Source: a virus. Taken from it: 29,003 nucleotides of DNA. The stretch covers positions 1 through 29,003 of IMG/VR virus record IMGVR_UViG_3300049846_000700; one strand, given 5' to 3'. Below are positions 1 to 29,003 of this stretch, one piece after another. Below the pieces are notes generated by a model, which searched no databases, was not told where the DNA came from, and saw only the letters and a program-made list of their open reading frames with translations. Every line of letters begins with the position of its first letter. Position 1 is the first letter of the stretch. Made by a program: the position numbers and the translations under genes.

Positions 1-166
1 TTTTTAATATCTTAAATTCAGTTTGATAATATGCAGTGCTGATCAACTTTTTGACAGCATGGGGAGTCAATAAAAACTTTTTTTTAAAAAATAGTTGATC
101 ACTTCAAATTGCTCAAAAGTTTGACGGACTACTTGACAACATAGAAAATGAGGATCGGGGCAAAAT
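1..166. other. AT-rich non-coding leader upstream of terminase
   Basis: No gene is visible here. The stretch is A/T rich. It contains an inverted repeat, TGATCAACT at 40-48 and AGTTGATCA at 93-101. It also contains four copies of TTGAC: forward at 51, 121 and 133, and reverse as GTCAA at 66-70. Sitting just upstream of a Nu1-like small terminase, it could hold the packaging recognition site or a late promoter. TTGACA at 51-56 has no good -10 element at the usual distance, so no promoter is called. The assignment is inference from position and repeats. Confidence 0.4.
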
Positions 167-697
167 ATGACAGACAATAAATTCAACATGAGCCTGACTC
201 AATATGCCAGGCATCGAGGCATCAGTGTCTCAGCAGTCTCAAAAGCAATCATTGAGGGAAAGATCAATGGTGCATTCATTCTTAAGGGTGACAAAAAGCT
301 TATTGATCCAATTTTGGCAGACAAGCTTTGGGATGCTCTTTCTTTCTCAGACAATCGCAGGATCAAAATGGAGGAGATGGCATCTGCACCAGCGGCCCAA
401 GGATATGCCAAGGCCAGAGCTGCCAAAGAGACTTTCTCTGCCAAGGTTGCACAACTCCAATATGAGCAAAAGGCAGGCAAGCTCTGCAGGATTGATGATG
501 TCAAGAGAGCTGCTCAAGAGACAGCAAGAGTCACCAGAGATGCAATCCTGGCAATGCCTGACCGATTGGCCCCTGTCCTGGCAGCAGAGACAGATCATCA
601 TAAGATCAGAGAGCTACTCATCAAAGAATTTCACAATGCCCTGACCAATCTTTCTCATGTGAATTGGGATGAGATCCTTGAAAGAGGCAAAAAATGA
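167..697 (+). CDS. terS: terminase small subunit (Nu1-like)
   Basis: This is the likely DNA-recognition subunit of the packaging motor. It would bind the packaging site and load the large subunit. Residues about 10-37 (LTQYARHRGISVSAVSKAI) read as a winged helix-turn-helix. They are followed by an alanine/lysine-rich helical stretch (about 70-125) suited to oligomerisation. The 176-residue length and the order wHTH then helices fit the Nu1/DUF1441 type of small terminase. A GGGG stretch lies 6 bases before the ATG. The gene overlaps the large subunit by four bases (ATGA), the usual coupled terS-terL layout. Family assignment rests on domain order and position rather than on a long conserved motif. 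Confidence 0.82.
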   Translation: MTDNKFNMSLTQYARHRGISVSAVSKAIIEGKINGAFILKGDKKLIDPILADKLWDALSFSDNRRIKMEEMASAPAAQGYAKARAAKETFSAKVAQLQYEQKAGKLCRIDDVKRAAQETARVTRDAILAMPDRLAPVLAAETDHHKIRELLIKEFHNALTNLSHVNWDEILERGKK

Positions 698-2616
698 TTG
701 GAGGGCAATCAGCATGGGCCAGTGCTTTTGCAGTTGGCATAAGGCCAAAGGAAAGACTCACAGTCAGCACCTGGGCCGATAAGAATAGAGTGCTCACATC
801 AAAGACATCAGCAGAGCCTGGCCCCTGGAGGACATCCAGGACTCCCTACTTAAGGGAGATCATGGATGAGCTCAGTGATCATAGCAGTGCACAGAAAGTC
901 ATCATGATGGGAGGTGCTCAGGTTGGAAAGACTGAGACTGGCAACAATTGGATTGGTTACACAATTGACGATGATCCATCTGTCATGATGGTTGTGTGGC
1001 CATCATTGCCAGACGTGCTAACCAATAGCAAGCTCAGAATCACACCACTAATTGAGAATACTCCATGCCTTAAGGATAAGATCATGGATCACAAAGGCCG
1101 AGAGGAGGGCAGCTCAGCAAGATTCAGGAATTTTGATGGTGGAGCACTTATCCTGGCCGGTGCCAATTCGGCCTCTGGCCTCAAGTCCATCCCTGCCAAG
1201 AAAGTCTTTCTTGATGAGGTGGACTCTTATCCTGATGATGTTGAGGGAGAGGGTGATCCAGTTGCTCTGGTCTTTGCAAGGCAGAGGACTTTCAGCAAGA
1301 GAAAAGCTTTCTTATCATCCACACCAACCGATAAGGGCAAGTCCAAAATTGAAAAAGAATTCAGGGCAAGTGATCAGCGATATTATTATGTGCCATGCCC
1401 TCACTGCAAAGAGCTGCAGACTCTTAATTGGGAGCAGATATCCTATGAGACTGATGAGGATCAGAATGGTGAGCCAGTGGTCACATCATGCTCTTATTTT
1501 TGCAAACATTGTGGAGAGGAGATTCCTGAGCACTTTAAGACTTGGATGTTGTCAGAGGAGAATGGTGCCAAGTGGATCAAGCACAACCCTAAGAGCCAGG
1601 TGCCAGGCTTTCACATCTCAGCACTCTATTCTCCCCTTGGATGGTATTCATGGAGAGATGCAGCTCAGGACTATGTGAATGCTGGTGAGGACCAGGAAAA
1701 GCTCAAAGTCTGGACCAACACAGTGCTTGGCATGACCTATGAGATGCAAGGTGAGGCCCCTGACTTTGAAAAGATCAAGTCCAGGTGTGAGCTTTATTCA
1801 ATCGGATCTGTGCCAAGAGGAGTGGTCTTTTTGACTGCATCAATAGATGTGCAGAAAGATCGCTTTGAGGTGTTGATCCAAGGATGGGGGAGAAGGAGAG
1901 AGAGATGGCTGGTTGAGCACAAAGTCATCCCTGCTGACACTGATAATGATAAGGATTGGGATCTCCTGGAGGACTATCTTGCAACAGAATTCAAGCACGT
2001 TGATGGCCAGGTCTTTGGGATCTATAAGGCAGGAATTGACTCAGGCTACCAGGCTCAAAAAGTTTACAACTTTTGCAAGCGATATGATGCCAGCAAAGTG
2101 TTGCCACTAAAAGGCCGTGATGACATCAAGACCATGATTGGGACAACCTCTGCTGTGGACCTCCAAAATGAAAAGACTGGAAAGAGACTCAAGAAAGGTG
2201 TGAGATTGTGGCACATTGGAGTCAATATCATCAAGGATGAGCTTTTTGCAGATCTTAATCTGTCAGCACCAGATGATATTATTGATGGATATCCTGCAGG
2301 ATTCCTGCACTATCCTCAACTTGATGAGGAGTTTTTTAGGCAATTAACAGCAGAAAAGAGAATCATCTCCAGGAGCAGTGATGGAAAGCACAAGTCAACC
2401 TACATCAAGACCTATGAAAGGAATGAGGTGCTGGATCTCCATGTTTATGCCAGGGCCATTGCATCAGTGGTTGGCATTGATCGACTCAATGAATCAGGAT
2501 GGCAAAGATTGGAGAGTCAGAAAGCTATTGCCTTAAAAGTGAAAAAGAAAGAGAATGAAGGAATTGAGCTGAAAATTAAAAAGAAAATAAAACACTCTGA
2601 CTTTTGGGATGACTAA
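694..2616 (+). CDS. terL: terminase large subunit (GpA family)
   Basis: This is the ATP-driven DNA translocase and nuclease that fills the prohead. Walker A is GGAQVGKT at residues 73-80 and Walker B is VFLDEVD at 171-177. A coupling-type SSTPTDKGKS motif lies near 208-217. A four-cysteine zinc-ribbon-like element (CPHC at 235-238, CKHC at 270-273) follows the ATPase, as in many GpA proteins. The C-terminal nuclease has the expected acidic residues: D385 in SIDVQKDR, D449 in AGIDSG and D581 in NEVLDLHVYARA. The 640-residue length is normal for the family. It starts inside the terS stop (ATGA) and its stop is shared with the next ATG. A GpA-type enzyme with a Nu1-like partner favours lambda-style, cos-type packaging, but no cos site can be proven here. 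Confidence 0.96.
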   Translation: MIGGQSAWASAFAVGIRPKERLTVSTWADKNRVLTSKTSAEPGPWRTSRTPYLREIMDELSDHSSAQKVIMMGGAQVGKTETGNNWIGYTIDDDPSVMMVVWPSLPDVLTNSKLRITPLIENTPCLKDKIMDHKGREEGSSARFRNFDGGALILAGANSASGLKSIPAKKVFLDEVDSYPDDVEGEGDPVALVFARQRTFSKRKAFLSSTPTDKGKSKIEKEFRASDQRYYYVPCPHCKELQTLNWEQISYETDEDQNGEPVVTSCSYFCKHCGEEIPEHFKTWMLSEENGAKWIKHNPKSQVPGFHISALYSPLGWYSWRDAAQDYVNAGEDQEKLKVWTNTVLGMTYEMQGEAPDFEKIKSRCELYSIGSVPRGVVFLTASIDVQKDRFEVLIQGWGRRRERWLVEHKVIPADTDNDKDWDLLEDYLATEFKHVDGQVFGIYKAGIDSGYQAQKVYNFCKRYDASKVLPLKGRDDIKTMIGTTSAVDLQNEKTGKRLKKGVRLWHIGVNIIKDELFADLNLSAPDDIIDGYPAGFLHYPQLDEEFFRQLTAEKRIISRSSDGKHKSTYIKTYERNEVLDLHVYARAIASVVGIDRLNESGWQRLESQKAIALKVKKKENEGIELKIKKKIKHSDFWDD

Positions 2617-2858
2617 TGGCACAGAATGAATCTGTTGGATTCACCAAGGAGAATCTCAATTCACTTGAGGCAGCAATTGCTGAGGGTGCAATGAGAGTGA
2701 AATATTCTGACAAAGAGATTGAATACAGATCTTTGAAAGAGATGCTCAAGATAAGAGACTTGATGAAAAGAGAGCTTGGACTTTGCAAGTCAAAAGGAAA
2801 GAAAGGTCTCTTTGGTGGCACAAGAATCCATTCAGAATATGACAAGGATCTTTGTTGA
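2616..2858 (+). CDS. gpW-like head-tail joining protein
   Basis: This 80-residue protein has the pattern of the small lambda gpW-like family that lies between terminase and portal. An N-terminal helix (ENLNSLEAAIAEG) is followed by a beta hairpin (MRVKYSDKEIEYRS) and a second helix (LKEMLKIRDLMKRELG). In lambda, gpW closes the portal after packaging and makes the site for gpFII. The start overlaps the terminase stop and the stop overlaps the portal ATG (TGATG). The C-terminal third is basic (CKSKGKKGLFGG), compatible with contact to DNA in the connector. The call rests on the hairpin pattern, size and gene order. Confidence 0.8.
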   Translation: MAQNESVGFTKENLNSLEAAIAEGAMRVKYSDKEIEYRSLKEMLKIRDLMKRELGLCKSKGKKGLFGGTRIHSEYDKDLC

Positions 2859-4264
2859 TGAATTTTTTTGATATTTTTAAAGGCAAAAAAAGAAAGTATG
2901 AGGCCGCAAGCCAGGGCCGCAGGACTAAGGGATGGAATACTGGATCAGGTGATTCCAATCAGATGATCAAAAAAGATCTCCCATGGCTCAGAGAAAGATC
3001 CAGAGATCTAAGACGCAACAATCCTTATGCACATAAAGGCATTGAGCTTGTCACCAACAATGTGGTTGGCAAAGGAATCAAGTGCCAATTTGATAATGAC
3101 AAGACAGGGAAAGTCTCTGCTCTTTGGAAAGAATGGACAGAGACCACTGCTTGTGACTATGAGGGCAGGAATAACTTGGCCGGTCTGCAGAGATTGATAA
3201 TGGATGCCATTGTTGAATCTGGTGAGGTCCTGGTCAGAAAAAGGTATGTCAATGATAAGAGATTCCCAATTCAATATCAGGTCTTGGAATCAGACTTTTT
3301 AGACACCAACCTTATGGATGGTGCAAAGGCCGGATCATCCAACATCATCATGCAAGGAATTGAATTCAATCCAGATGGCAAAAGAGTTGGATATCACCTC
3401 TATGAGCAACATCCAAAGTCAGCAATATTGACAGGATTAAGCAATAAATCAAATTTTATTCCTGCCAATGAAGTGCTCCACTTATACAGAATGGAAAGGC
3501 CTGGCCAGATCAGAGGTGTCCCATGGCTTTCCAATTGCATGATCAGACTCAAAGACCTTGATGGCTTTGAGGATGCCCAACTCTTAAGAGCAAAGATTGC
3601 CAGCCTTTTCGTGGCATTTATTCAAGATATTTCAGAAAATGTTGAATGTGATGATGAGTCTCAGGATCTTGGTGAGAAAATGGTGCCAGGAATAATTGAG
3701 CACTTGCCTCCAGGCAAAAGCATTGAGTTTGCTAATCCACCTGCTTTTGATCTCTATAAGGACTTTGTGAATTCTCAACTTAGAGGGATTGCAGCAGGTC
3801 TTGGTGTCACTTATGAGGCATTGACTCAAGATCTTTCTCAAGTGAATTTTTCATCTGCAAGAATGGGATGGATTGAAATGGGCCGCAACATTGATGCCTG
3901 GAGAGATGGCATCATGATCAGTGGATTTCTTAATCCAGTGCAAAGTGATTTCAGATTTATGTTGCAATTAAATAGCATAAATGCTGACAATATCACTCAT
4001 GGATATATTCCACCAAGACGTGAGCTGATTGATCCAGAGAAAGAGATCTCTGCCATGAAGGATGCAATAAGACTTGGACTAGACTCAAGACAAAATGCTG
4101 TCCAATCAATGGGCCGTGATCCAGAGCTTGTGTTGAATCAGATTGCCGAGGATAATAAAACAATTGACTCACTTGGAATAATTTTGGACTCAGATCCAAG
4201 AAAGACAGCCAAGTCAGGCAGGATGCAAGATTCAAAAGGAAGTAGAGATGACACAGAAAATTAA
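2858..4264 (+). CDS. portal protein (lambda family)
   Basis: This is the dodecameric vertex protein through which DNA enters and to which the tail attaches. The N-terminal pattern is typical of lambda-type portals: LRERSRDLRRNNPYAHKGIE near residues 45-65, then NNVVGKGIKCQ. The conserved core RGVPWLSNCMIRLKDLDGFEDAQLLRAKI and the late RGIAAGLGVTYEALTQDLSQVNFSSARMG stretch are both present. Length is 468 residues. Two TTG codons precede the ATG at 2858. The ATG is preferred because it overlaps the gpW stop and has AAGGA about ten bases upstream. The 3' end overlaps the capsid fusion gene by 17 bases, so translation is probably coupled. Confidence 0.95.
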   Translation: MNFFDIFKGKKRKYEAASQGRRTKGWNTGSGDSNQMIKKDLPWLRERSRDLRRNNPYAHKGIELVTNNVVGKGIKCQFDNDKTGKVSALWKEWTETTACDYEGRNNLAGLQRLIMDAIVESGEVLVRKRYVNDKRFPIQYQVLESDFLDTNLMDGAKAGSSNIIMQGIEFNPDGKRVGYHLYEQHPKSAILTGLSNKSNFIPANEVLHLYRMERPGQIRGVPWLSNCMIRLKDLDGFEDAQLLRAKIASLFVAFIQDISENVECDDESQDLGEKMVPGIIEHLPPGKSIEFANPPAFDLYKDFVNSQLRGIAAGLGVTYEALTQDLSQVNFSSARMGWIEMGRNIDAWRDGIMISGFLNPVQSDFRFMLQLNSINADNITHGYIPPRRELIDPEKEISAMKDAIRLGLDSRQNAVQSMGRDPELVLNQIAEDNKTIDSLGIILDSDPRKTAKSGRMQDSKGSRDDTEN

Positions 4265-6227
4265 AATTCCAACAACAACCATGATGAGAGCTGCTTTCAC
4301 ACCTGGCAGCTTTAATGATGAAGAAAAGACAGTGGAGGTTGTTTGGACAACAGGCGCAAAGGTGAAAAGGTATACATGGACAGGATCTTTCATGGAGGAG
4401 CTTTCTCTCAAAAAAGATCATGTCAAACTTGATAGATTAAACAATGGAGCACCTGTCCTCAACAACCATTCATCATACGACTTGAGAGATTCAATTGGTG
4501 TGGTTGAAAAAGCATGGATCAAAGATAAGCAAGGTCATGCCATCATCAGATTCTCATCAAGAGAGGATGTCCAAGGTATTGTGAAAGATGTCAAAGATGG
4601 GATCATTCGCAACATCTCTGTTGGATATAAGGTTGATAAGTTTGAGGACGTGACAAAAAAAGGTGATGAGATCCCAACTTATAGAGCAGTTGATTGGACT
4701 CCAGTTGAGCTTTCTTTTGTCAATATTCCTGCAGATGCAAGTGCTCAGGTAAGATCTGAGAAAAATGAGAATGAATTTAATGATGTTATTTTAATTAGGG
4801 AGGAGGAGATCATGGACAAAGAAAAAGAACAAACACAAACAACTGAGCAACCAGCAGTAGAGCAAAAGCCTGCAGATCCAGTTGTTGATCTTGATGCTGT
4901 CAGAGCAGAGGCAGAAAAGAAAGGTCAAGAAAAAGAGATGGCCCGTCAAGATGAGATCAAAAAATCAGTCACAGCAGCAGGTCTTGAGGATAGTGTTGCA
5001 GTCCGATTGATATCAGAAAAGAAAAGCGTCCAAGATGCCAATGCTGAGGTGATCAGGTTATTGGCAGAGAAAAATAAAGAATCAAAAACAAGCAGCCAAA
5101 AAGTGGAGGTGAATGACGTGGACAATAAACAGATGAGAAGAAAGTGTGCAGAGAATGCAATTTTAAAAACATACAGCAAGACTCATAAGAATGAGAAGCT
5201 GGTTGATGGTGCCCGTCAATTCATGGGTGAAGGCATCCTTGACATTTGTCGCCGTTACCTTGAGGCAGATGGTGTTGACACTCGCAACATGACACGTCAA
5301 GTGTTGGCCAAAATTGCCATTGGAAAGCGTGATATTGAGGTTGATGGAATCAGGACTCATGTGAGCACTGACTTTCCATCATTGCTTGCTGATGTGACCA
5401 ATAAATCACTCCAGCGTGCTTATGCTGAACGTCCTCAGACTTTCAGCTTTTTTGTCACTGACCGATTGGTCAATGACTTTAAAACTATTCAATCAACTCA
5501 GTTTGGTGATGCACCTGCACTTGAGAAAGTGAATGAAAAAGGTGAATACAAAGAGGGCACAATTTCTGAGGGTAAAGAGACATACAAGCTTGCAAAGTAC
5601 GGAAAAATTCTTTCTGTGTCTGAGGAGCTTTTGATCAATGATGATCTTGGTGCATTCCTTGGCCTTGCTGAGAAAATGGGCCGCCGCTCAAGAGATCTTG
5701 AATCTGATCTTGTTTGGGGCATCATTAATGCCAACGCTGCCATGATCAATGACAACGTGGCACTTTTCCATGCAAGCCATGGCAACCTTGCTGGTGCTGC
5801 TGCTGCAATTGCAGTTGCATCAGTGAGTGCTGGACGTATTGCAATGAGAGCACAACTTGGATTGGATAAGGCAAAATTAGATCTACAACCAAAATATTTA
5901 GTTGTGCCAAGTGCTCTTGAGACTGTTGCTGAGCAATTTGTTGGCGCAACAGTGCCTCAACAAGATTCCAACTACAATCCATTCAAGACCAAGCTGCAAG
6001 TGGTCTCTGAGATTCGATTGGATGACAGCTCTCTCACAGCTTGGTACTTGTTTGCAGACAAGTCTCAATGTGAGATGGTTGAGATGTCAAAATTGAGAGG
6101 CATGGAGCAACCAAGCATTGAGACCAAAGAGGCCTTTGAGTCTGATGCAATGAAAATAAAAATAAAATATCACGTTGCTGCAAAAGCACTTGATTTCCGT
6201 GGATTCTACAAAAACGCTGGTGTTTAA
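4248..6227 (+). CDS. prohead protease / scaffold / major capsid protein fusion
   Basis: This single 659-residue frame holds three parts. Residues 1-170 are an HK97-type (U35) prohead protease, with catalytic candidates H74 in VLNNH, S124 in NISVGY and E154 in PVELSF. Residues about 185-290 are a highly charged, helix-rich linker resembling a scaffold or delta domain (EQKPADPVVDLDAVRAEAEK). Residues about 291-659 are the major capsid protein, with the E-loop/backbone type sequence expected of HK97-fold capsids. Protease-capsid fusions are known in phages with Mu-like tails. Two in-frame internal starts with strong SD sequences (M189, V291) would give 471- and 369-residue products. Arginine codons change along the gene: AGA/AGG is 9 of 10 before residue 189 but only 6 of 20 after 291. 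This suggests the capsid part is made at higher level. Confidence 0.93.
   Translation: MTQKIKIPTTTMMRAAFTPGSFNDEEKTVEVVWTTGAKVKRYTWTGSFMEELSLKKDHVKLDRLNNGAPVLNNHSSYDLRDSIGVVEKAWIKDKQGHAIIRFSSREDVQGIVKDVKDGIIRNISVGYKVDKFEDVTKKGDEIPTYRAVDWTPVELSFVNIPADASAQVRSEKNENEFNDVILIREEEIMDKEKEQTQTTEQPAVEQKPADPVVDLDAVRAEAEKKGQEKEMARQDEIKKSVTAAGLEDSVAVRLISEKKSVQDANAEVIRLLAEKNKESKTSSQKVEVNDVDNKQMRRKCAENAILKTYSKTHKNEKLVDGARQFMGEGILDICRRYLEADGVDTRNMTRQVLAKIAIGKRDIEVDGIRTHVSTDFPSLLADVTNKSLQRAYAERPQTFSFFVTDRLVNDFKTIQSTQFGDAPALEKVNEKGEYKEGTISEGKETYKLAKYGKILSVSEELLINDDLGAFLGLAEKMGRRSRDLESDLVWGIINANAAMINDNVALFHASHGNLAGAAAAIAVASVSAGRIAMRAQLGLDKAKLDLQPKYLVVPSALETVAEQFVGATVPQQDSNYNPFKTKLQVVSEIRLDDSSLTAWYLFADKSQCEMVEMSKLRGMEQPSIETKEAFESDAMKIKIKYHVAAKALDFRGFYKNAGV
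4798..4814 (+). promoter_or_regulatory. internal ribosome binding site, start M189 of the capsid fusion
   Basis: GGGAGGAGG lies about 5 bases before an in-frame ATG at 4812 inside the capsid fusion gene. It is among the strongest SD sequences in the window. Initiation here would give a 471-residue product lacking the protease, in the manner of lambda Nu3 nested in C. The motif is seen directly; its use is inferred. Confidence 0.6.
5105..5120 (+). promoter_or_regulatory. internal ribosome binding site, GTG start at V291
   Basis: GGAGGT at 5105-5110 stands 7 bases before an in-frame GTG at 5118. The site is exactly at the border between the charged linker and the capsid domain. Initiation here would produce a free 369-residue capsid protein, a normal size for the HK97 fold. 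The same bases encode Val-Glu-Val, so the match could be accidental. Confidence 0.4.
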
Positions 6228-7603: not shown

Positions 7604-7825
7604 ATGAAAATAAAGATCAGGCCAAAGGCAGGCCTCAAAGTGCCTCATCCATTATCTCAAAAATTTTTGCATCCAGATGGTGAGATGGTGATAAGATCAT
7701 CTTATTGGATCAGGAGAATCAAGGATGGTGATGTGGAGGAGATCTCCCAAGAATTATCACCACAAGCAGAAAGCAAAACAAAAGAAAAGAAAAAGTCCAA
7801 TAAAAGTGTGGAGGTTGAATCATGA
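7604..7825 (+). CDS. DUF2635 protein (Mu gp38-like)
   Basis: This small basic protein of 73 residues has the pattern IRPKAGLKVPHPLSQKFLHPDGEMV...YWIRRIKDGDVEE. It resembles DUF2635 proteins found immediately upstream of Mu-type sheath genes. The family has no settled function; its constant place suggests a role in tail morphogenesis. The C-terminus is a lysine-rich tail (SKTKEKKKSNKS). It starts 3 bases after the preceding stop and overlaps the sheath start by four bases (ATGA), so it is likely co-translated with the sheath. Confidence 0.78.
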   Translation: MKIKIRPKAGLKVPHPLSQKFLHPDGEMVIRSSYWIRRIKDGDVEEISQELSPQAESKTKEKKKSNKSVEVES

Positions 7826-9294
7826 CAATAGCTTTTAATCAAGTGCCATCGAGCATCCGAGTGCCTTTTCTTTATGCTGAATTCGACAACTCAGCAGCAC
7901 AGCAAGGCCCTAATCAACAACCTTATAAGGTTTTATTGATTGGCCCAAAATTAGCAGCAGGATCTGCTGTGGAGGGATCAATCAACTTATTATCATCAAG
8001 TGCAAAAGAGGCAGACACTCTTTTTGGTGAGGGATCTCTATTGGCCCACATGGCCCAAGCATTCAGAGAGGTCAACACATTCAATGAGCTTTATGCTGTC
8101 CCAATGGTTGACACAGGCCCATCTGTTGCTGCCAGTGGATCTTATGAATTCACATCACCTGCCACTGCTGATGGTGTATTCTCAATTTATATTGCAGGAA
8201 GAAAATATTCTTTTGCTGTCTTAAATGGAGACACTGAATCTGAGATGGCCACAGCTCTTGCTGCTGCCATTCAGGCAGACACTAAGAGATTGGTCAATGG
8301 TGCAGTCAATGGAATGAATCTTGATAAGGTTGATTTCACTGCACGCAACAAAGGAATCCAAGGCAATGACATTGATATCAGATTGAATTATCAATCTGAT
8401 GATGCCCTCCCTGGTGGAGTGGCAGGCACAATCACTGCAATGAGTGGTGGCACAGGTCAACCTGATGTCAGCACAGTGCTTGCAGGATTGCCTGATGAGC
8501 AATTCATCTTATGGGTGAGTGCATGGTCAGACTCTGGCAACAGAGCTGCCATTGAGCAAGAGCTTGATGATCGCTTTGGCCCAATCCAACAGATTGATGG
8601 ATATTGTCACTATTACAAGAAAGGCAATCTTGGGGCATTGACTGCCTTTGGATCTGCCCTCAATAGTCAATTCACTATTGTCCACAGAGCTGGTGGCCCA
8701 GAGCATGGTGCCATGCAGATCTCAAGAAAAGTGGCAGTGATTGCACGCTCTGCTGAGATTGATCCTGCACGTCCTTTTCAAAATCTTGAGGTGAAAGGTG
8801 CATTGCCAGAAAGTGATTCAGAGAGATTGCCTCTTGAGGATCGCAACACTCTGCTTTTCAATGGCATCAGCACTGACAAGATTGTTGGTGGCAAGGTCAT
8901 TCTTGAGAGAGTGATCACGACTTATCAGACCAATGCTGCAGGTGCTGCTGATATCTCTTATCTGGATCTGACAACAATGCTCACACTTTCTTATTTGAGA
9001 TATGATTGGCGAAACTATATGCTGACAAAATATCCAAGACATAAGTTGGCCAATGATGGCACTCGTTTTGCTGAGGGCCAACCAATCATGACTCCAGGAC
9101 TTGGGAAAGCAGAGGCCATCAAAAAATTCCGTCAATGGGAATTGAATGGCCTTGTTGAGGGAGCTGATCAATTCAAAGAGCAGCTTATTGTTGAAAGGAA
9201 TGCCTCAGATCCCAATCGTCTTGACTTCATGTTGCCACCAGATCTCATCAATCAATTGATGGTCATGGGGACACAATTCAAATTTTTGTTATAA
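7822..9294 (+). CDS. tail sheath protein (Mu gpL-like)
   Basis: This is the contractile sheath subunit. The opening (FNQVPSSIRVPFLYAEFDNSAAQQGPNQQPYKVLLIGPK) and the C-terminal half (ERVITTYQTNAAGAADISYLDLTTMLTLSYLRYDWRNYM, then LVEGADQFKEQLIVERN) follow the Mu L-type sheath. Length of 490 residues is normal. GGAGGTTGAATC before the ATG is a strong SD. About 10 of 22 arginine codons are CGN, against 1 of 11 in the tape measure gene. This gene and the capsid therefore escape the general avoidance of CG, as expected if codons are selected for high expression. Confidence 0.95.
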   Translation: MTIAFNQVPSSIRVPFLYAEFDNSAAQQGPNQQPYKVLLIGPKLAAGSAVEGSINLLSSSAKEADTLFGEGSLLAHMAQAFREVNTFNELYAVPMVDTGPSVAASGSYEFTSPATADGVFSIYIAGRKYSFAVLNGDTESEMATALAAAIQADTKRLVNGAVNGMNLDKVDFTARNKGIQGNDIDIRLNYQSDDALPGGVAGTITAMSGGTGQPDVSTVLAGLPDEQFILWVSAWSDSGNRAAIEQELDDRFGPIQQIDGYCHYYKKGNLGALTAFGSALNSQFTIVHRAGGPEHGAMQISRKVAVIARSAEIDPARPFQNLEVKGALPESDSERLPLEDRNTLLFNGISTDKIVGGKVILERVITTYQTNAAGAADISYLDLTTMLTLSYLRYDWRNYMLTKYPRHKLANDGTRFAEGQPIMTPGLGKAEAIKKFRQWELNGLVEGADQFKEQLIVERNASDPNRLDFMLPPDLINQLMVMGTQFKFLL

Positions 9295-10051: not shown

Positions 10052-10152
10052 ACTTTCACTTTCAACCAAGTGAGCTGAATGAGATGAAAAAGTCTGATGT
10101 CTATTTTTGGATGGAAAGACTTAAGGAGCAATTAGATGGGGAGCGAGTCTGA
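10000..10152 (+). CDS. tail assembly chaperone extension (gpE'-like), -1 frame
   Basis: The -1 frame relative to the chaperone is open from 9952 to the TGA at 10150-10152. It encodes ARHFHFQPSELNEMKKSDVYFWMERL, which closely follows the FHWPPSELDxM...W.ER pattern of gpE'-type extensions in P2- and Mu-like phages. Only one ATG (10084) occurs in the frame, in the middle of this motif, so independent initiation would not make the domain. Slipping at TTTT would join 94 zero-frame codons to 50 codons here, giving a 144-residue protein. Its end overlaps the tape measure start at 10136 by 17 bases. In P2 and lambda the long form coats the tape measure during tail assembly. Confidence 0.82.
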   Translation, partial: CIAWPADWSHALGSLARHFHFQPSELNEMKKSDVYFWMERLKEQLDGERV

Positions 10153-11965
10153 AAGCAAAATAAAGCTCAAGGCCTATGATGGGATGAGTGGTGTCATTGA
10201 TAAGATCAAGGCAAAATTCCCACAGCTCTCAACATCAATTGATCAGACTGCAAGCAGATTCAAGCTACTCCAAGAAAATTCAAAAAATTTCAATAAATCA
10301 ATGTCAAAAATTGGCGACAAAGTGACAGGTGTTGGAAAAGGCATGAGCACTTTCATCACAGCACCTGTTGCTGCTTTTGGTGCTTTCTCATTAAAGACTG
10401 CCACAGAATTCCAGGACTCAATGAATAAAGTCCAGGCCATGACTGGAGCATCTACTGATGAAATGGAAAAGATGAGGCAGATGGCAAAAGATCTTGGTGC
10501 ATCAACAGCATTCTCTGCCAAAGAGGCAGCAGATGCCATGTCCTTTTTTGGACAAGCAGGCTTTGATGCCAATCAAATATTGCAAGCAACACCAGCAACA
10601 CTTTCTCTTGCATCAGCATCAGGGACTGACCTGGCAAGATCTGCAGACATTCTTTCCAATGTCATGGGTGGATTCAACGTCAAAGCTGATCAAGCAGGCC
10701 GCTTTGTTGACATCATGGCAATGGCCACAGCAAAGGGCAACATTGACATGGAGATGCTTTCAGAGACCATGAAGGATGCAGCTCCAGTGGCCCAAAAGTT
10801 TGGAGCATCTATTGAGGAGACATCTGCACTCACTGCCAAGCTTGGTGATGCAGGCATCCAGGGTGGCAAGGCCGGGACAACTTTAAAAAATATGTTTTTG
10901 AATCTCTCTGCACCAACAGAAAAAATAAAAAGCTTGATTGGTGCTCTTGGTGTCCAGACTGTGGACAAGGCATCTGGAAAGATGAGGTCAATGACAGACA
11001 TTCTTTCTCAGATGGGCAAGGCCTTTGAGTCCAAGGGGATCACTGGTGCCAAAAAGCTTGCCATATTGAATGAGATCTTTGGTGACAGAGCAATTGCAGG
11101 AGCTGGCGTTTTGATAGATGCAGTTGGGAAAGTTGATGCCACAACAGGACTCAATTCAGTCCAGGAGCTGACAAAGGCATTGGAGAATTCAACTGGATCA
11201 GCAGCACAGATGCAAAAGACAATGGAGAAAGGACTCCCTGGAGCTTTTAGGAATTTAAGCTCTGCAGTTGAGGGTGTCCAATTGGCATTATTTGACATGG
11301 ATTTTGGTGGCAAAAAATTATCAGAAAGAATTGTGGACATTGTTGATGGCATCACTGGATTCATCCAGTCACTATCAACAACCAATCAATCAATATTGAA
11401 ATGGGGAGCAGGAATTGCTGCAATTGCTGCTCTTGTAGGGCCATTTATTGTTGGCCTTGGATTAGTTATTGGATTTATTCCAACGCTTGTGACTGGCATC
11501 AATTTATTGGTTGCAGGCTTTGGGATTCTTAAGGCAACAATGATTGCCACAACATTGGCAGCAGGTCCAATGCTGGTTGCACTTGGTCTCTTTGCAGCAG
11601 CAGGTGTGATGATCTATAAGAACTGGCAACCAATTAAGACATTCTTTGCAGATCTTTTCACAAGTCCACTCCAGCAATTGAAAGACATGATTGGCTTTGT
11701 TGGCAGCTTTGGAGCATTGAAAAACACCTTTGGCTTTGGGAAAGTTGATTCAGATCTCAAGGCCCAAGGATTCAACATTCAAGAGCAAGGAGCTGAGACA
11801 GGCTCAAGAGTTATGGTGAAAGAATCTGCACAAAATAAATTGAGAGAAAAGAAAGCAATGGTTGATATTAATTTCAGCAATGTCCCCAAAGACACAAAAG
11901 TGATTGCAGATGACAGAGACAGCATCATTGGATCACTGACTGGATTCATGGGCATTGGAGGATAA
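10136..11965 (+). CDS. tail tape measure protein
   Basis: This protein sets tail length and is likely ejected with the DNA. Residues about 60-310 follow the TP901/PhageMin core: TATEFQDSMNKVQAMTGAS, then LGASTAFSAKEAADAMSFFGQAGFDA, GTDLARSADILSNVMGGFN and GIQGGKAGTTLKNMFLNLSAP. Residues about 420-500 form a long hydrophobic stretch with several possible membrane segments (AAIAALVGPFIVGLGLVIG, MLVALGLFAAAGVMIY), common in tape measures and thought to help DNA cross the inner membrane. At about 1.5 Angstrom per residue, 609 residues imply a tail of roughly 90 nm. AAGGAG lies 7 bases before the ATG. Coding begins inside the chaperone -1 frame. Confidence 0.94.
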   Translation: MGSESESKIKLKAYDGMSGVIDKIKAKFPQLSTSIDQTASRFKLLQENSKNFNKSMSKIGDKVTGVGKGMSTFITAPVAAFGAFSLKTATEFQDSMNKVQAMTGASTDEMEKMRQMAKDLGASTAFSAKEAADAMSFFGQAGFDANQILQATPATLSLASASGTDLARSADILSNVMGGFNVKADQAGRFVDIMAMATAKGNIDMEMLSETMKDAAPVAQKFGASIEETSALTAKLGDAGIQGGKAGTTLKNMFLNLSAPTEKIKSLIGALGVQTVDKASGKMRSMTDILSQMGKAFESKGITGAKKLAILNEIFGDRAIAGAGVLIDAVGKVDATTGLNSVQELTKALENSTGSAAQMQKTMEKGLPGAFRNLSSAVEGVQLALFDMDFGGKKLSERIVDIVDGITGFIQSLSTTNQSILKWGAGIAAIAALVGPFIVGLGLVIGFIPTLVTGINLLVAGFGILKATMIATTLAAGPMLVALGLFAAAGVMIYKNWQPIKTFFADLFTSPLQQLKDMIGFVGSFGALKNTFGFGKVDSDLKAQGFNIQEQGAETGSRVMVKESAQNKLREKKAMVDINFSNVPKDTKVIADDRDSIIGSLTGFMGIGG

Positions 11966-11968
11966 TTC

Positions 11969-14845: not shown

Positions 14846-14856
14846 GCAGGTGATCA

Positions 14857-15129
14857 ATGGCAATGACCAAGGCATCAATGAAAAATAAAATTCTGACAAA
14901 GATCACTGCTTGCAATCCAAACATGAACCCCCAAGTGCAGGCCATTGTTGATGCTTGCCTTGAGGCGTTTTGTGATGGGATAATTGAGGAGATTGTCCAA
15001 AATTCAACAATTACAATGGGGGCCGGTGATTTCAAAGTCAACCCTGGCACCTTTAAAGATTCATTGGTGCAACCAATAACAGGTCAAGGTGACAATGCAA
15101 GCTTTGCTCTCACAGGGAAAATCTCATGA
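14857..15129 (+). CDS. small conserved-position baseplate-region protein, unknown function
   Basis: This 90-residue protein has a helical N-terminal two thirds (SMKNKILTKITACNPNMNPQVQAIVDACLEAFCDGIIEEIVQ) and a short glycine-rich beta C-terminus (FKVNPGTFKDSLVQPITGQGDNASFALTGKIS). Small proteins of this build are often found between gp45-like and gp46-like genes of Mu-type baseplates, but I cannot name a function. AGGTGATC before the ATG is a good SD, and the stop overlaps the gp46-like start (ATGAG). A structural or assembly role in the baseplate is inferred from place only. Confidence 0.7.
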   Translation: MAMTKASMKNKILTKITACNPNMNPQVQAIVDACLEAFCDGIIEEIVQNSTITMGAGDFKVNPGTFKDSLVQPITGQGDNASFALTGKIS

Positions 15130-15578: not shown

Positions 15579-15579
15579 G

Positions 15580-16680: not shown

Positions 16681-17288
16681 TATTAAAAAGATGGCAAGCT
16701 GCTCTCAGGAGTTTATTCCCTAGAGGGAAAGCTTGGGATGCAAAAGAGGACTCAGCAAGCAACATAAGCAAGCTGATCAATGCTCTTGGACAAGAGGCCT
16801 GCAGACTTGAGGTCAGGGCCTTTGATCTATTGAATGAGATTGATCCCAGGATCACCAATCAATTGCTGACTGATTGGGAAAGACTTCTTAATCTGCCAGA
16901 TGAATGTGAGCCAGAGCCAGAGAATCTCACTGCTGAGCAAAGGAGACAAAGAATTGTCCAGGTGCTCACCACAAGTGGTGGACAGAATAAACAATTTTTT
17001 ATCAATCTTGCTGCCAATTTTGGCATTGCAATCTCAGTGACAGATGTGACTGACCAGCCACCTTTCAGAGTTGGCAGATCCAGAGTTGGTGACAGACTCA
17101 CCAATGGGCCATGGACTTTTGCCTTTGTTATTTCAGCACCTTTTGAGAATGCCACAAGATTCAGAGTTGGGATCAGCAGAGTTGGTCAAAGATTGGTTGA
17201 CGTGAGCAATCCAACTCTGGAATGCTTAATCAATAAACACAAGCCAGCTCACACAATAGCAATATTGACTTTCACAGGAGAATTTTAA
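16662..17288 (+). CDS. baseplate wedge protein (Mu gp48-like, DUF2313)
   Basis: The N-terminal pattern LILKRWQAALRSLFPRGKAWDAKEDSASNISKLINALGQE and the segment LLTDWERLLNLPDECEP...EQRRQRIVQVLTTSGGQNKQFFINLAANFGI match DUF2313/gp48 proteins, the second wedge component. The start is TTG at 16662, with GGGAG 7 bases upstream; no ATG fits. The C-terminal half holds two related segments, FRVGRSRVGDRLTN and FRVGISRVGQRLVD, a small internal repeat. The next gene, a fibre-type protein, starts 12 bases after the stop behind GGGAGG. Confidence 0.9.
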   Translation: MADSALILKRWQAALRSLFPRGKAWDAKEDSASNISKLINALGQEACRLEVRAFDLLNEIDPRITNQLLTDWERLLNLPDECEPEPENLTAEQRRQRIVQVLTTSGGQNKQFFINLAANFGIAISVTDVTDQPPFRVGRSRVGDRLTNGPWTFAFVISAPFENATRFRVGISRVGQRLVDVSNPTLECLINKHKPAHTIAILTFTGEF

Positions 17289-17882: not shown

Positions 17883-19652
17883 ATGAGAGCTTTCATGATC
17901 ATAGCAATCATGCTGATTGGCATCACGACAATGAATGCCAATGCAGCAGGAGTCACAGCAGATGTCTTTAAAATTTCAAAGCCAGGATCATCTGCCAATA
18001 AAGAGATCCATCTTGGTGGCACAAGAAAAATCATATCCAATGAGACCACTGGCAAGCTCCAATTCACCAATGATGGTGTTGTCACAAAAAATCTTGGAGC
18101 AGGTGAGGGAGGATCATCTGGTGGAGTCAATGACCTGACCAACCCAGGATTCGAGGATGGCACAACATCATCATGGACATCATCAGGAGATATCAGCCAA
18201 TTAAATAAAACAGGCTGCACCAAGGGCACCAACTGTCCACTGGCAGGCGAGATCTCTTTGAGATTCTCTCCCAATGCAACCAATGACTACTTTGAAAGCT
18301 CACTGGCAACATTATCAGAGGCCAACTTTGGGCGAGCTTGTGAGGTGAAATTCACCTACATTGGAGGTGACACCAACCTAAAGGCCGAGGTCATCAATGG
18401 TGATGCTGAGGTGATTGGCACCTTTAAAAATTCAGCAGGACTTAATCAATTGCCTGCTCATTCAATATCTGCAGATGAGTCAATCTTTTTCTTATGTCCA
18501 ACCAAGACAGCAATTGTTGCCGACAATGATAAGGGCAACCTCAAGATCAAGATCACCAATTCTGGAGGATCTCCAGCAGCAGCATCTGATTGGGACAACT
18601 TTCATCTTGGCAACCTTTTGCAACTTGCTGAGACTACATCACCAGACGTGCTGGCAGGCAGGACAACTGGCACCTGTGCATCAATGGTTGCCAATAGTGA
18701 TCCAGCTTTCACAGCAGCAACCAACTCAGGATCTGGAGTGTGTGATATCACTGTTGCGTCTGGCACATTCACTGAGGTGCCATCTTGCACTTGTGAGGTC
18801 ACTGCCAATGCCACAACAGATTGCATCTATGACACAACAGCAACAACAACAACACTCTTAAGATTCAGGACTTATGTCACCAACACCGCATCATCAGCAA
18901 GTGCCAACATTGCCATCATCTGCAAAAAGACTCAAGCCGATGCAAAGCAATCAGTCCAAGTCTATAAGTCAATCCCAAAAGCTGCACAAAACATCAACAC
19001 TTTCACTGCACTTTTGAACAACACAACAGAGGCGATAAGCCAAGAAAATGCAGACTGGATAAATGGGAATGCCACATCATCTGGCACAGGATCACATTCA
19101 ATCACATTGGTCTCAAGTCTTTTTGGACTTGCTCCCAATTGCTCATGCAGCACCAACACTCAAGGGATTGAGTGCATTGCTCAGACTGTCTCTGCAAGTG
19201 CAATGACTGTTGTTGCCTATTCAACAACAACTGGATCTGCCAATGGTGGAGCTGCCAACTTGACATTGACCTGCTCAAGACAATCAACTGATGTCAAGCA
19301 AGAGGTCACTCAGCCAGTGCTTATTAATCAAGTGCAAGTCTCAAAGCAATCAGGAGTCAGGACAGAATCATGCTACATCACCAACGCAGGGACACCGACA
19401 AAGGCAGGTGACACAAGTCTTTGTGATTGGATCTCATCAATAAGCGACAATTCAACAGGTGATAGTACGGTGCAATTCGCTGCAGGCTATTTCACTGCTG
19501 CACCAGCGTGCACTTGCACGGCCTCTGGCACAAACGCATCACAATGCAATGCCAATTGGAATAGCACAACCAATGTGAATGTTTGGACAGGCAATGCTGC
19601 TGGATCACCTCAAGACTATAACTATCAACTACACTGCACAGGAGCTAGATAA
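17883..19652 (+). CDS. exported, cysteine-rich modular protein with tail-fibre features
   Basis: Residues 1-22 look like a Sec signal peptide: basic start, hydrophobic MIIAIMLIGITT, and a cleavage-type ANA-AG ending. Residues about 24-82 resemble the N-terminal segment of tail-fibre-like proteins (TTGKLQFTNDGVVTKNLGAG), then a glycine-rich linker. Residues about 83-245 open with LTNPGFEDGTTSSWTSSGD, a pattern of carbohydrate-binding beta-sandwich modules. Residues about 258-589 carry three modules, each with F-x-x-[AV]-P-x-C-x-C at 296, 414 and 537, a third cysteine 9-10 residues on, and a fourth about 30 residues later near the module end. Even pairing suits disulphides in an oxidising compartment. 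It sits in the fibre cluster, 12 bases after the short fibre gene. It may be a host-surface protein or an exported receptor-type virion part; function is unknown. Confidence 0.75.
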   Translation: MRAFMIIAIMLIGITTMNANAAGVTADVFKISKPGSSANKEIHLGGTRKIISNETTGKLQFTNDGVVTKNLGAGEGGSSGGVNDLTNPGFEDGTTSSWTSSGDISQLNKTGCTKGTNCPLAGEISLRFSPNATNDYFESSLATLSEANFGRACEVKFTYIGGDTNLKAEVINGDAEVIGTFKNSAGLNQLPAHSISADESIFFLCPTKTAIVADNDKGNLKIKITNSGGSPAAASDWDNFHLGNLLQLAETTSPDVLAGRTTGTCASMVANSDPAFTAATNSGSGVCDITVASGTFTEVPSCTCEVTANATTDCIYDTTATTTTLLRFRTYVTNTASSASANIAIICKKTQADAKQSVQVYKSIPKAAQNINTFTALLNNTTEAISQENADWINGNATSSGTGSHSITLVSSLFGLAPNCSCSTNTQGIECIAQTVSASAMTVVAYSTTTGSANGGAANLTLTCSRQSTDVKQEVTQPVLINQVQVSKQSGVRTESCYITNAGTPTKAGDTSLCDWISSISDNSTGDSTVQFAAGYFTAAPACTCTASGTNASQCNANWNSTTNVNVWTGNAAGSPQDYNYQLHCTGAR

Positions 19653-25771: not shown

Positions 25772-26782
25772 TCATTCTTTGCAATCTTGATGGCCTCCTC
25801 CACAATCTCTCTCTCCACTTGATTCAATGGCTTTGATTTTTTTTGATCTTTTCCTTGAGCTTGCTTTTGATCTCCTGACATTCGATGCCCCTTTGATATG
25901 CTTTTGCTGGTTGTTGACGATGATCAATTTTAGATTGTCTTTGAGTGATCTGCCAAGGGATGCAGTGCTCAGATCCCTGAGCTCCAAAATTGCCCCTAGA
26001 TTGCCATGATCAAAGTCCCCTAGCCTTATCATGACTTTCTTTCCAAAGACCATCCTGGTGCTCTTTGCGAGGCCCAGGACCACATCCTGGAGTCTATCCC
26101 TCTCCTCAAATAACTTGCCAATCTGCTGATCAATTCTGTGAATCTTATTGCAGGCTGCCACAGCATCCTTTCTGGTCAAAAACTTGTAGTCATCCTGCAC
26201 CATCTTTGGTGGCCTCCTCTCTTTGACCAGCATCCAAAAGTGCTCACACCAAGCAGTCATTTTTCTCATATATTCCAGATCAGGGGTCACCTTGCAAAAG
26301 GCCACTTGCTTTTGCTCATTGATGCCAATGAAATGAAGCTCAGGCAGACCAGTGACCATGAGCTGATATTGGACTTGTGGCCAATAGTGATCTGGCACTT
26401 TGCCCTCATGCTTAAGCAAGAGCCAATCTGCCTGGCCCATGTATTTCACCTCACCAACAAAGCCTTTCTTAACATTCAAGCAGTCAAGACTGACTCTTGC
26501 CCATGGGATGCTCTTGTGTTGGACAACCATGGCAGGGATATCAAAGCCAATCCTCAACTCCATTGCTTGTCTGGCATAAGATTCAAAGCGGTGGCCTCTC
26601 TCAAAGATATAAGCTTTCTGAGCATGGTCAGGAGTGCAGATCAAAAGCTTTTCCTCCCACAATTGAAAGACTGTCCTCCAGGGACTCACCATCATGATGC
26701 TTGGGACATCTGATCCACCGATGAATCTTTTTCTTTGGTCAAGCCATTCTTTTGTGTTTTGATCTAATTGCACAATCTGCAT
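25772..26782 (-). CDS. YqaJ-type viral recombinase exonuclease
   Basis: This is the only leftward gene. It has the YqaJ / lambda-exonuclease plan: KEWLDQRKRFIGGSDVPSIM near residues 11-30, FERGHRFESYARQ near 60-72, D100 in RVSLDCL, E111 and K113 in GEVKY (the D...ExK metal-binding set), and DHYWPQVQYQLMVTG at 131-145. Such enzymes resect double-stranded ends for single-strand annealing. From ATG 26782 it is 336 residues. GGAG lies 6 bases upstream of this start, whereas an earlier ATG at 26857 would run through the operator region. The last 50 residues are Lys/Arg-rich. It faces the Sak4-like and SSB-like genes across the control region; the three probably form one recombination system. Confidence 0.92.
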   Translation of the reverse strand: MQIVQLDQNTKEWLDQRKRFIGGSDVPSIMMVSPWRTVFQLWEEKLLICTPDHAQKAYIFERGHRFESYARQAMELRIGFDIPAMVVQHKSIPWARVSLDCLNVKKGFVGEVKYMGQADWLLLKHEGKVPDHYWPQVQYQLMVTGLPELHFIGINEQKQVAFCKVTPDLEYMRKMTAWCEHFWMLVKERRPPKMVQDDYKFLTRKDAVAACNKIHRIDQQIGKLFEERDRLQDVVLGLAKSTRMVFGKKVMIRLGDFDHGNLGAILELRDLSTASLGRSLKDNLKLIIVNNQQKHIKGASNVRRSKASSRKRSKKIKAIESSGERDCGGGHQDCKE

Positions 26783-26801
26783 CAAGTGCTCCAATTTACA
26801 G

Positions 26802-26817
26802 GTGGCCAATTGGCCAC
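26802..26817. promoter_or_regulatory. operator-like palindrome O1
   Basis: GTGGCCAATTGGCCAC is a perfect 16-base palindrome 20 bases upstream of the exonuclease start. It contains the half-site TTGGCCA also found in the second palindrome. Probably a dimer-binding site controlling the divergent early genes. Confidence 0.72.
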
Positions 26818-26826
26818 GAAAATAAA

Positions 26827-26843
26827 TGGCCAATAATTGGCCA
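26827..26843. promoter_or_regulatory. operator-like palindrome O2
   Basis: TGGCCAATAATTGGCCA is a perfect 17-base palindrome with one central base. It ends 7 bases before the TTGACA element of the rightward promoter, and its centre is about 25 bases from that of the first palindrome. The difference of one central base between the two sites is notable. Confidence 0.72.
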
Positions 26844-26850
26844 AAAGTTG

Positions 26851-26880
26851 TTGACACCTTATTTTAAAACTTGGCAGGAT
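26851..26880 (+). promoter_or_regulatory. candidate early rightward promoter
   Basis: TTGACA at 26851-26856 is a consensus -35 element. The best -10 at 18 bases spacing is CAGGAT (26875-26880), a weak match. The element stands just downstream of O2 and 38 bases before the HTH gene. Direct repeats TTATTTTAAA at 26859 and 26898 flank it. Confidence 0.5.
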
Positions 26881-26917
26881 TCAAGCATCCATCGAATTTA
26901 TTTTAAAGGGGACAGTC

Positions 26918-27103
26918 ATGACAGTGACCAACAGGCTCATTGCAATCAGAAAAACAATTCCAATCAAAAAGATCTTAAAGCATCTCGATATCTCAGGCAG
27001 GTCACTAAGGAGATGGTGCAAAGATGGTGTGCCAGCAATAGCCTTGGAAAGGACAGAGAAAAAGCTCACTGCACTTGAGAAAAAGAAAAAGGGGGCAGCA
27101 TGA
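26918..27103 (+). CDS. small HTH DNA-binding protein (Cro-like candidate)
   Basis: This 61-residue basic protein has a helix-turn-helix pattern at about residues 18-42 (IKKILKHLDISGRSLRRWCKDGVPAIALER) and a lysine-rich tail (EKKLTALEKKKKG). It is the first gene of the rightward early operon, next to two operator-like palindromes, which is the position of Cro or a small repressor. GGGGA stands 5 bases before the ATG, and the stop overlaps the ATPase start. It is a good candidate for binding the TTGGCCA half-sites. It could instead be an excisionase-like protein; the sequence cannot decide. Confidence 0.68.
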   Translation: MTVTNRLIAIRKTIPIKKILKHLDISGRSLRRWCKDGVPAIALERTEKKLTALEKKKKGAA

Positions 27104-28029
27104 GCATTCTTTCACAAGCCAATAGAGGCAGAATTGAAAAGCCAATTTTTGCTCTCTTGTATGCTCAAAGCAAAGTTGGCAAGACAACCTTTGCAGCATC
27201 ATCACCTGATCCACTTTTCCTGGATCTTGAGGACAGCTCTGAGCACTTAGATGTGGCCAGACTTGGATCAGATAAGTTGACCACTTATGAGCAAGTGATT
27301 GGATTGCTCCAGGAGATATTGAAAGAGGACAAGATCCCTTATAAGTCAATTGTCATTGATTCATGTGACAGACTTGAGCTGAGAATTCATGAGAGAGTGT
27401 GCAGAGATAATGAATGCCATGCCATCGAGGACATTGGATTCTCAAAAGGCTACATCCACGCTCTGCCTTATTGGACAGAGATCTTAAAACTATTGAGACA
27501 GATCCAGCAAAAGCACAAAGTCCATGTCATTCTCATTGGTCATGCTCTAGTCAAAAAATTCACAGATCCTTATAAGAATGAGTCTTATGACCGCTATGAG
27601 ATCAAACTCCACCACAAGGCCGCTGACATTGTGAAAGAGTCAGTTGATATGATTCTTTTCATGAGAAAGGATGTGGCCATCATGAAGGAGGGCAAAGGCC
27701 AAGGGGCCAAGACCAAAGCTTTCAATGTGGATGAAAGACTGATGCACACTCAATTGGAGCCTGCCTTTGATGCTGGCTCAAGAATAGCATTGCCCTCATC
27801 ATTCGAGGTGCCAGAGCACAATGGATTTAAAGTCCTTTTGGATCTCACCAAGGTTGCAAAAGACTTGACTGCTGCAGATCTCTACAAGCAGTGCTGTGCT
27901 GCCATTTTGAATGTCAAAGATGAGGAGTCCAGAAAAACCATAAAGGACTATGTTGATAAGCACAAGAATGACAAGGGTGCAATGCAAGCATCACTTGAAA
28001 GAATAATTGCAAAAACAAGGGAGCATTAA
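27100..28029 (+). CDS. Sak4-like RecA-fold recombination ATPase
   Basis: The 309-residue protein has Walker A AQSKVGKT at residues 22-29, Walker B SIVIDSCD at 83-90, and a VHVILIGHA strand near 142-150. This is the plan of the AAA_24/Sak4 family of RecA-core phage proteins. Such proteins bind single-stranded DNA and promote annealing with their cognate SSB. The neighbour downstream is SSB-like, as usual for sak4, and a YqaJ nuclease lies across the control region. GGGGG precedes the ATG; the start overlaps the HTH stop (ATGA). The region after residue 230 is helical and may hold the DNA- or SSB-binding part. Confidence 0.88.
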   Translation: MSILSQANRGRIEKPIFALLYAQSKVGKTTFAASSPDPLFLDLEDSSEHLDVARLGSDKLTTYEQVIGLLQEILKEDKIPYKSIVIDSCDRLELRIHERVCRDNECHAIEDIGFSKGYIHALPYWTEILKLLRQIQQKHKVHVILIGHALVKKFTDPYKNESYDRYEIKLHHKAADIVKESVDMILFMRKDVAIMKEGKGQGAKTKAFNVDERLMHTQLEPAFDAGSRIALPSSFEVPEHNGFKVLLDLTKVAKDLTAADLYKQCCAAILNVKDEESRKTIKDYVDKHKNDKGAMQASLERIIAKTREH

Positions 28030-28030
28030 G

Positions 28031-28549
28031 ATGAGCACACAATCACCAAAGCCAACAGAGCCAGGCTATTTTAAGAGCAAGCCAGTGTCATGGAGTGCTG
28101 AGAGAAACAATAATGGAAAGCCATTCATCAATGTCAAATTTGAGAATGGACTTTATTGGAGAAAGTTTTTAGTGGGTGGGGCAATTCAAATTGCAGCAGA
28201 TGCTCTTTTCTTAATGGGATTCAAAGGAAAGACTGCCAATGACATCAATAAAGACCAGAATGCACTTGATAGGTCCAAAGAGGTGGATATCAGTGTTGAC
28301 TGGATTAAGAATGCTGATGGCTCCTATTATTTGAAAGAGGGCAAGAAAGTGCTTGAGGTCACTGGAGTGTGGCCACCTTATCAAAAGAAAGAGATCAGCC
28401 AAGCTGATCAGATTGAATTGGCAGGAATTGACCTGAGAGGATATCTGCAGAATTCTAAGAATAACCTTGGCACTCCAGTGGCAAAAGAATCCAAAGAGGC
28501 ACTGCTCCCACCTGCATCTGAATACAACTCGGACAATATTCCATTTTGA
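28031..28549 (+). CDS. ssb: single-stranded DNA-binding protein (SSB-like)
   Basis: The start is ATG 28031 behind AGGGAG, giving 172 residues; a start at 28007 would lie inside the ATPase gene. The N-terminal part is strand-rich (GYFKSKPVSWSAERNNNGKPFINVKFENGLYWRKFLVGG), compatible with an OB fold. The last residues SDNIPF copy the acidic hydrophobic-tipped tail (D-D-I-P-F) by which bacterial SSBs recruit partners. The tail, the place right after a Sak4-like ATPase, and size make SSB the best call, although the core does not match classical SSB closely. It probably coats resected DNA and loads the annealing ATPase. Confidence 0.8.
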   Translation: MSTQSPKPTEPGYFKSKPVSWSAERNNNGKPFINVKFENGLYWRKFLVGGAIQIAADALFLMGFKGKTANDINKDQNALDRSKEVDISVDWIKNADGSYYLKEGKKVLEVTGVWPPYQKKEISQADQIELAGIDLRGYLQNSKNNLGTPVAKESKEALLPPASEYNSDNIPF

Positions 28550-28578
28550 TAGTTTAAAAGCTGTCAAATTGGGGCACA

Positions 28579-28608
28579 GGTGGAGTTGGGCAGCTCTCCA
28601 CCATTTTT
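28579..28608 (+). terminator. rho-independent terminator after the ssb-like gene
   Basis: GGTGGAG and CTCCACC form a 7-bp stem with a ten-base loop, followed by ATTTTT. It lies 30 bases after the stop of the SSB-like gene and separates it from the following hypothetical gene. Confidence 0.78.
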
Positions 28609-28623
28609 AAAACAGAGGCAATC

Positions 28624-28941
28624 ATGAGAGTCATTGATCCAAAAAGCAGAGATGAGAGAGTGCTATCTGACACAATCAGAGAGATGCTCAAGAAAGAATT
28701 GAGACAACCTTTGGACTCTGCCAATGTTATTGATTGCATCACCATGCTGCCATTCCAGACTCTTATCTATCATGACAAGATTTATGGCAGATGGATTGTC
28801 ACCAACCAGCACTTTGACACTATCAGGGCAAGCACCAAGACAACTTTCTCAGGGGCCAACTTCATGGTTGTGGAGCCAACCTTTGAGATCGCTGCAGCAA
28901 GGGCAGTCCATTATCACTATCACACCAGGATGAAAGAATGA
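28624..28941 (+). CDS. early-region hypothetical protein
   Basis: This 105-residue protein follows the terminator at 28579. It has a charged helical N-terminal half (DPKSRDERVLSDTIREMLKKELRQPLDSANVIDCITML) and a C-terminal part with YHDKIYGRWIVTNQHFDTIRAS and HYHYHTRMKE. I do not recognise the family. The His/Tyr-rich ending could bind metal, but no full catalytic set is seen. It overlaps the next gene by four bases (ATGA), so it belongs to the early operon. CAGAGGCAATC before the ATG is a modest SD. Confidence 0.66.
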   Translation: MRVIDPKSRDERVLSDTIREMLKKELRQPLDSANVIDCITMLPFQTLIYHDKIYGRWIVTNQHFDTIRASTKTTFSGANFMVVEPTFEIAAARAVHYHYHTRMKE

Positions 28942-29003
28942 AATATCTCATAGTCAGAGAGGATCAGGTTGAAAAAGACCTGGCAGAGAAAATTAAATCA
29001 AAG
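28938..29003 (+). CDS. partial gene at the right edge
   Basis: The reading frame starts at ATG 28938, coupled to the preceding stop, and runs off the window after 22 codons (MKYLIVREDQVEKDLAEKIK...). AGGA lies about 8 bases upstream. Too little is present to name a product. Confidence 0.6.
   Translation, partial: MKYLIVREDQVEKDLAEKIKSK

Follow-up and report, generated by a model that had tools for sequence, protein, structure and literature searches.

Extreme CpG depletion at the DNA level in a clade of contractile-tailed phages and in a second, separate phage lineage

The near absence of CpG dinucleotides from a double-stranded DNA phage of mid G+C content raises the question as to whether the shortage belongs to the DNA itself or to the proteins it encodes, and what has removed the CpG. 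We addressed this in a phage fragment of 29,003 bases (1..29003, a linear and probably incomplete IMG/VR virus record), referred to here as the window. It contains 189 CpG where approximately 1377 are expected, a ratio of 0.137, and in 200 mononucleotide shuffles of the window the count ranged from 1284 to 1444 and was never below 1284. Around six sevenths of the CpG expected by chance are missing both from the window and from about ten relatives recovered from other metagenomes. With a G+C content of 43.7% the window has a GpC ratio of 1.194, TpG and CpA are in excess (1.534 and 1.594 on the plus strand, 1.55 for CpA/TpG overall), and shortages are strong for TpA (0.345) and moderate for ApC/GpT (0.66). 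The depletion is real, extreme, acts at the DNA level, extends across a clade and has been gained at least twice.

An initial annotation made from the sequence had reported 2 CpG (8344, 8572) and 48 GpC in 7921-8640 and 7 CpG in 10141-12000, and these counts are exact, with 36.0 CpG expected in the first stretch and 87.3 CpG expected beside 122 GpC in the second. The abundance of TpG and CpA that it described and its observation that arginine is mostly encoded by AGA/AGG (336 of 409 codons) were reproduced, and where it had named a CpG ratio above 0.5 or a GpC shortage of equal size as evidence to the contrary we found 0.137 and 1.19. The shortage is present in all 1-kb bins (0.04-0.41, the top bin lying inside the major capsid gene), in genes of both strands, in all gene regions and at all codon positions, and intergenic DNA, 1.1 kb in all, holds 10 CpG against 59 GpC. 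In order to place the window we used a comparison set of 321 other loci from related phages and sampled bacteria, whose minimum CpG ratio is 0.35 and whose lowest-ratio members are all AT-rich; at a G+C of 0.36-0.48 (n=61) the minimum is 0.48, which bears out the rarity that had been claimed.

The phage in the window has a contractile tail and a terminase and portal of the lambda type. The terminase small subunit (167..697, plus strand; phrog_57, E 1.6e-26) and the lambda gpA-type large subunit (694..2616, plus strand; PF05876, PF20454, tblastn) both have a CpG ratio of 0.14. By tblastn the nearest named phages to the large subunit are Wolbachia phage WO (46%), Rhodobacter phage RcOceanus and Silvanigrella phage CP017837, with lambda-type terminases 40-46% identical to that of the window, the last at about 40% and syntenic with the window across the whole structural module. 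Unlike the window these phages have CpG ratios of 0.68 (WO), 1.36 (RcOceanus) and 1.03 (CP017837) over the stretches read. Following the terminase on the plus strand are the portal protein (2852..4264; PF05136, E 3e-106), a fused prohead protease and major capsid protein (4248..6227; PF25209, PF10124) whose CpG ratio of 0.33 is the highest among the long genes, and the tail sheath (7822..9294; PF17482). A tail tape-measure-like protein (10136..11965, plus strand) was assigned by its position after the tube and chaperone and by homologues in relatives; its gene has a CpG ratio of 0.08 and spans the second of the two stretches counted in the initial annotation. The baseplate genes (hub, spike, gp46-like, J-like and I-like; 11969..17288, plus strand) rest on phrog_184, PF04865 and synteny with CP017837.

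At the tail-fibre position two consecutive genes (17883-20320) encode products with N-terminal signal-peptide-like stretches, and homologues of these proteins are also present in clade members, in L105 and in L326, a phage that is otherwise different. The first (17883..19652, plus strand), in which the signal-peptide-like stretch was judged by eye and which has homologues in clade members and L326, gave no positive Pfam or PHROG match and no match to named phages and plasmids, and its link to the phi1422 counterpart was not significant. The remaining features discussed here are a YqaJ/RecE-like recombination exonuclease on the minus strand (25772..26857; PF09588, phrog_434; CpG ratio 0.11), a Sak4-like AAA ATPase (27100..28029, plus strand; PF13479, E 1.8e-39) and two small replication-module genes (28007..28941, plus strand), shortly beyond which relatives L085 and L169 carry a C5 methyltransferase. 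No C5 methyltransferase was found inside the window (1..29003).

Codon usage offers one way to separate a DNA-level effect from one on proteins. When synonymous codons were shuffled within each gene, 628 +/- 18 CpG were expected at codon junctions and only 78 are present, which argues that avoidance acts on the DNA and not on protein sequence or codon preference. By codon position the CpG ratio is 0.32 (1-2), 0.06 (2-3) and 0.11 (3-1). The choice between pyrimidines in the window depends on the following base, with C/(C+T) at 0.067 if G follows, 0.79 if A does and 0.38-0.45 for a following C or T, which indicates that CG and TA are both avoided and CA/TG favoured. The capsid gene (4248-6227) keeps CpG at three times the level of the rest, largely in CGT/CGC arginine codons, which make up 14 of 34 arginine codons there, compared with 13 of 134 across six further long genes of the window. 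Across seven phages CGT/CGC is more frequent in the capsid and sheath genes than in the remaining long ones (pooled odds ratio 3.1; the p of 1e-10 is too small, the seven phages being related), most clearly in the window and L105. Translation therefore does not seem to act against CpG codons, and we read this as translation favouring CGY while some other force strips CpG from the DNA. Codon or amino-acid bias as the cause is ruled out by the synonymous shuffling together with the retention of CGY in virion genes.

Relatives were gathered from IMG/VR by terminase, capsid and sheath protein searches, and a maximum-likelihood family tree was built from 56 tail-sheath proteins. The window falls inside an 11-row sheath clade (support 100/97) whose contigs have CpG ratios of 0.10-0.29, with one at 0.57, while the relatives next to this clade have 0.92-1.48. 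One row of the tree, L235, was translated in the wrong frame; its long branch is artefactual and leaves the clade untouched. L105/L206 lie outside the clade and have a composition nearly equal to that of the window (CpG 0.11-0.13, TpA 0.25, CpA 1.6), with a sister at 1.28; the L105 terminase is only 44% identical to the window terminase, and L206 groups with L208 at modest support (96/69). That a near-identical signature arose twice, separately, favours a cause outside the phage and linked to the host. Composition also appears to shift fast, perhaps with a change of host, as the sheath sisters L167 and L186 differ in CpG (0.12 vs 0.25) and TpA (0.27 vs 0.53). An early-region ATPase was tried as a bridge to unrelated phages and was found only within the clade.

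As possible causes the initial annotation had listed a host that shares the bias, selection against restriction sites with CG in them and a host or phage methylase. The first of these is favoured, as two phage lineages share the signature, although such a host was not found. Our preferred explanation, which we hold with about even confidence, is that the genome-wide signature is an adjustment to one or more CpG-removing hosts, with methylation and deamination as the preferred route and site avoidance added. A host or host group would steadily remove CpG from replicating DNA and the phage would adjust to it; at the root, the host may methylate CpG cytosines, which would then deaminate to give TpG/CpA, and avoidance of CCGG and GCGC sites would add a further layer. 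We infer that imposition by the host is the most likely source of the depletion and methylation with deamination its preferred root; taken alone, that root cause is a tentative proposal to which we give clearly less than even confidence.

Substitutions at CpG sites bear on this route. Where the non-depleted relatives L195, L203 and L208 have CpG, the depleted phage has TG/CA at 33-46% of sites and keeps CG at 5-8%, while GC, CC and GG sites in the same comparison are kept at 35-58%. AG and CT are also frequent in the depleted phage at the CpG sites of these diverged sequences, and NCG to NCA was seen 25 times and NCG to NCT 18 times. The pattern, read from sequence comparison, fits what deamination would leave behind and is not proof of it. 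The strong depletion of TpA and the preference for C before A (0.79) are not explained by CpG deamination.

This second feature suggests another reading, in which TpA and CpG steps would be avoided generally, in DNA or RNA (a pyrimidine-purine rule with CA/TG preferred), for reasons unrelated to methylation. The window has 5542 CA+TG against 793 TA and 189 CG, C/(C+T) swings between 0.79 before A and 0.07 before G, and TpA and CpG are both low in the window and L105, all of which agree with such a rule. L170/L171, however, have a CpG ratio of 0.13 without strong TpA depletion (0.70) and the two are consequently separable, and we consider a general step rule quite improbable. Among relatives the TpA ratio varies independently of CpG (0.24-0.78), which points to a second compositional pressure on these phages. 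That independence, including the 0.70 of L171, also counts against the preferred, host-linked reading.

A cause in restriction should be visible in the sequence context of the CpG that is left. Depletion extends to all 16 tetranucleotide contexts of CpG: even the mildest case stands at 0.2-0.48 and every NCGN is below 0.5, and in the window TpG and CpA are in excess. The rarest contexts are GCGC in the window (3 sites) and CCGG in L085 (2), L169 (4) and L171 (1), and CGCG has 0 sites in the window. Depletion is not concentrated in particular short palindromes, which are only somewhat more depleted, and as all other CpG contexts are depleted too, palindrome avoidance appears to be a second layer. 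These counts rule out one restriction enzyme as the cause. Of the site avoidance proposed in the initial annotation the extra layer is therefore visible, whereas one or two enzymes cannot explain depletion in 16 of 16 contexts. In a broader form, a host could possess several CG-site restriction or methyl-directed nucleases which the phages survive through CpG loss and exchangeable methyltransferases. Both the palindrome avoidance and the C5 enzymes described below, with at least three non-orthologous types in the clade, resemble answers to restriction; against this, many enzymes would be required across the clade to reach every context, we know of no type II enzyme with a 2-base site, and L171 reaches 0.13 with no C5 methyltransferase on 43.5 kb. 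We regard this broader form as doubtful, if less so than the step rule.

C5 methyltransferases are associated with the clade and are not a sufficient cause of its composition. They were found in 5 of 6 clade contigs of >=37 kb (L085, L168, L169, L191 and L193) compared with 7 among the 32 other relatives (Fisher p = 0.008). The L085 and L169 enzymes are 53% identical with HhaI as best PDB match, those of L168 and L191 are 57% identical with DNMT3A as their best match in the PDB (E 4e-14, 2e-11), and that of L193 is a further type. In L085 the gene lies two genes past the homologue of window 28624-28941, i.e. beyond the window end, and the window accordingly stops near the methyltransferase site of L085 and L169. 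Such a distribution would suit a phage that methylates its own CpG, with deamination then emptying the genome of CpG. However, L171 (0.13) and L105 (0.11-0.13) show no C5 methyltransferase on contigs that may be incomplete, L193 has the enzyme yet is the least depleted of the clade (0.57), and in 75 contigs that carry relatives of the DNMT3-like enzyme the ratio spans 0.15-1.60 with a median of 0.85. L171 and the phages of ordinary CpG with DNMT3-like relatives rule out a phage C5 methyltransferase as sufficient cause, and phage-encoded methylation as a general explanation is in our estimation very unlikely. What stands of the phage methylase suggested earlier is its presence in most long clade contigs; the window itself has none.

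We also searched for a CpG-poor host. Clustered-CpG patterns were screened against a reversed control in 955 genomes, comprising 289 from the class of G013 (Alphaproteobacteria by title), 369 from the class of G016 (Gammaproteobacteria by title) and 297 from the phylum of G014 (Bacteroidota by title), and 5-20 kb was then read from about 50 suspects, those poorest in clustered CpG. None of these suspects was below 0.35, which counts against the host reading, as does the 96/69 support of the L206 and L208 pairing. Two 5.5-Mb genomes without any clustered CpG had ratios of 0.66-0.98, which shows that the clustered-CpG pattern alone misleads. No tRNA genes that might serve as a host clue were found in the window or its relatives. 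The lowest E-value for the YqaJ gene among the named-phage matches listed belongs to Bdellovibrio phage phi1422, itself at a CpG ratio of 1.17, and this match together with the Silvanigrella synteny gives a weak hint of a Bdellovibrionota host. A more specific form of the host reading, which we think unlikely, would have a hitherto unrecognised bacterial lineage with most CpG methylated and CpG lost to or below the usual vertebrate level at mid G+C, with phages that mimic it and trade C5 methyltransferases, DNMT3-like ones included, at one locus.

Comparable CpG loss is found in vertebrates, where it is caused by methylation and deamination. In bacteria CpG underrepresentation has reportedly been tied to CpG-specific C5 methyltransferases such as M.MpeI of Mycoplasma penetrans and M.SssI. 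The window resembles such systems in being a prokaryotic replicon in which CpG is strongly and generally short and differs in being a DNA phage of mid G+C (44%), a fragment without a methyltransferase, with several clade members at 0.10-0.14. Phage restriction-site avoidance is similar in that the scarcest contexts of several clade members are CCGG, GCGC and CGCG, but here every CpG context is depleted. Clostridium difficile genomes are CpG-depleted both genome-wide and within coding sequence (PMC6141142), in that case on a bacterial chromosome and not in a phage. A clade of mid-G+C bacterial viruses with vertebrate-like or stronger CpG loss, together with a separate second lineage, would be a natural system in which to ask whether bacterial CpG methylation produces the same trace or whether restriction is able to, and the signature could act as a compositional label for finding the host.

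C5 methyltransferases of at least three non-orthologous types lie in related phages at L166:1501-2262, L180:13021-13980, L182:5666-6709, L328:1480-2514 and L329:964-1914. Several methyltransferase genes of related phages adjoin SSB-like and exonuclease-like genes, a position that looks like an exchange locus. For L180:13021-13980 and L329:964-1914 the best solved relative is DNMT3A and the motif VSAxxRxRxYW is present. Two unrelated contigs with DNMT3-like relatives, L464 (0.24) and L417 (0.29), are CpG-poor but AT-rich.
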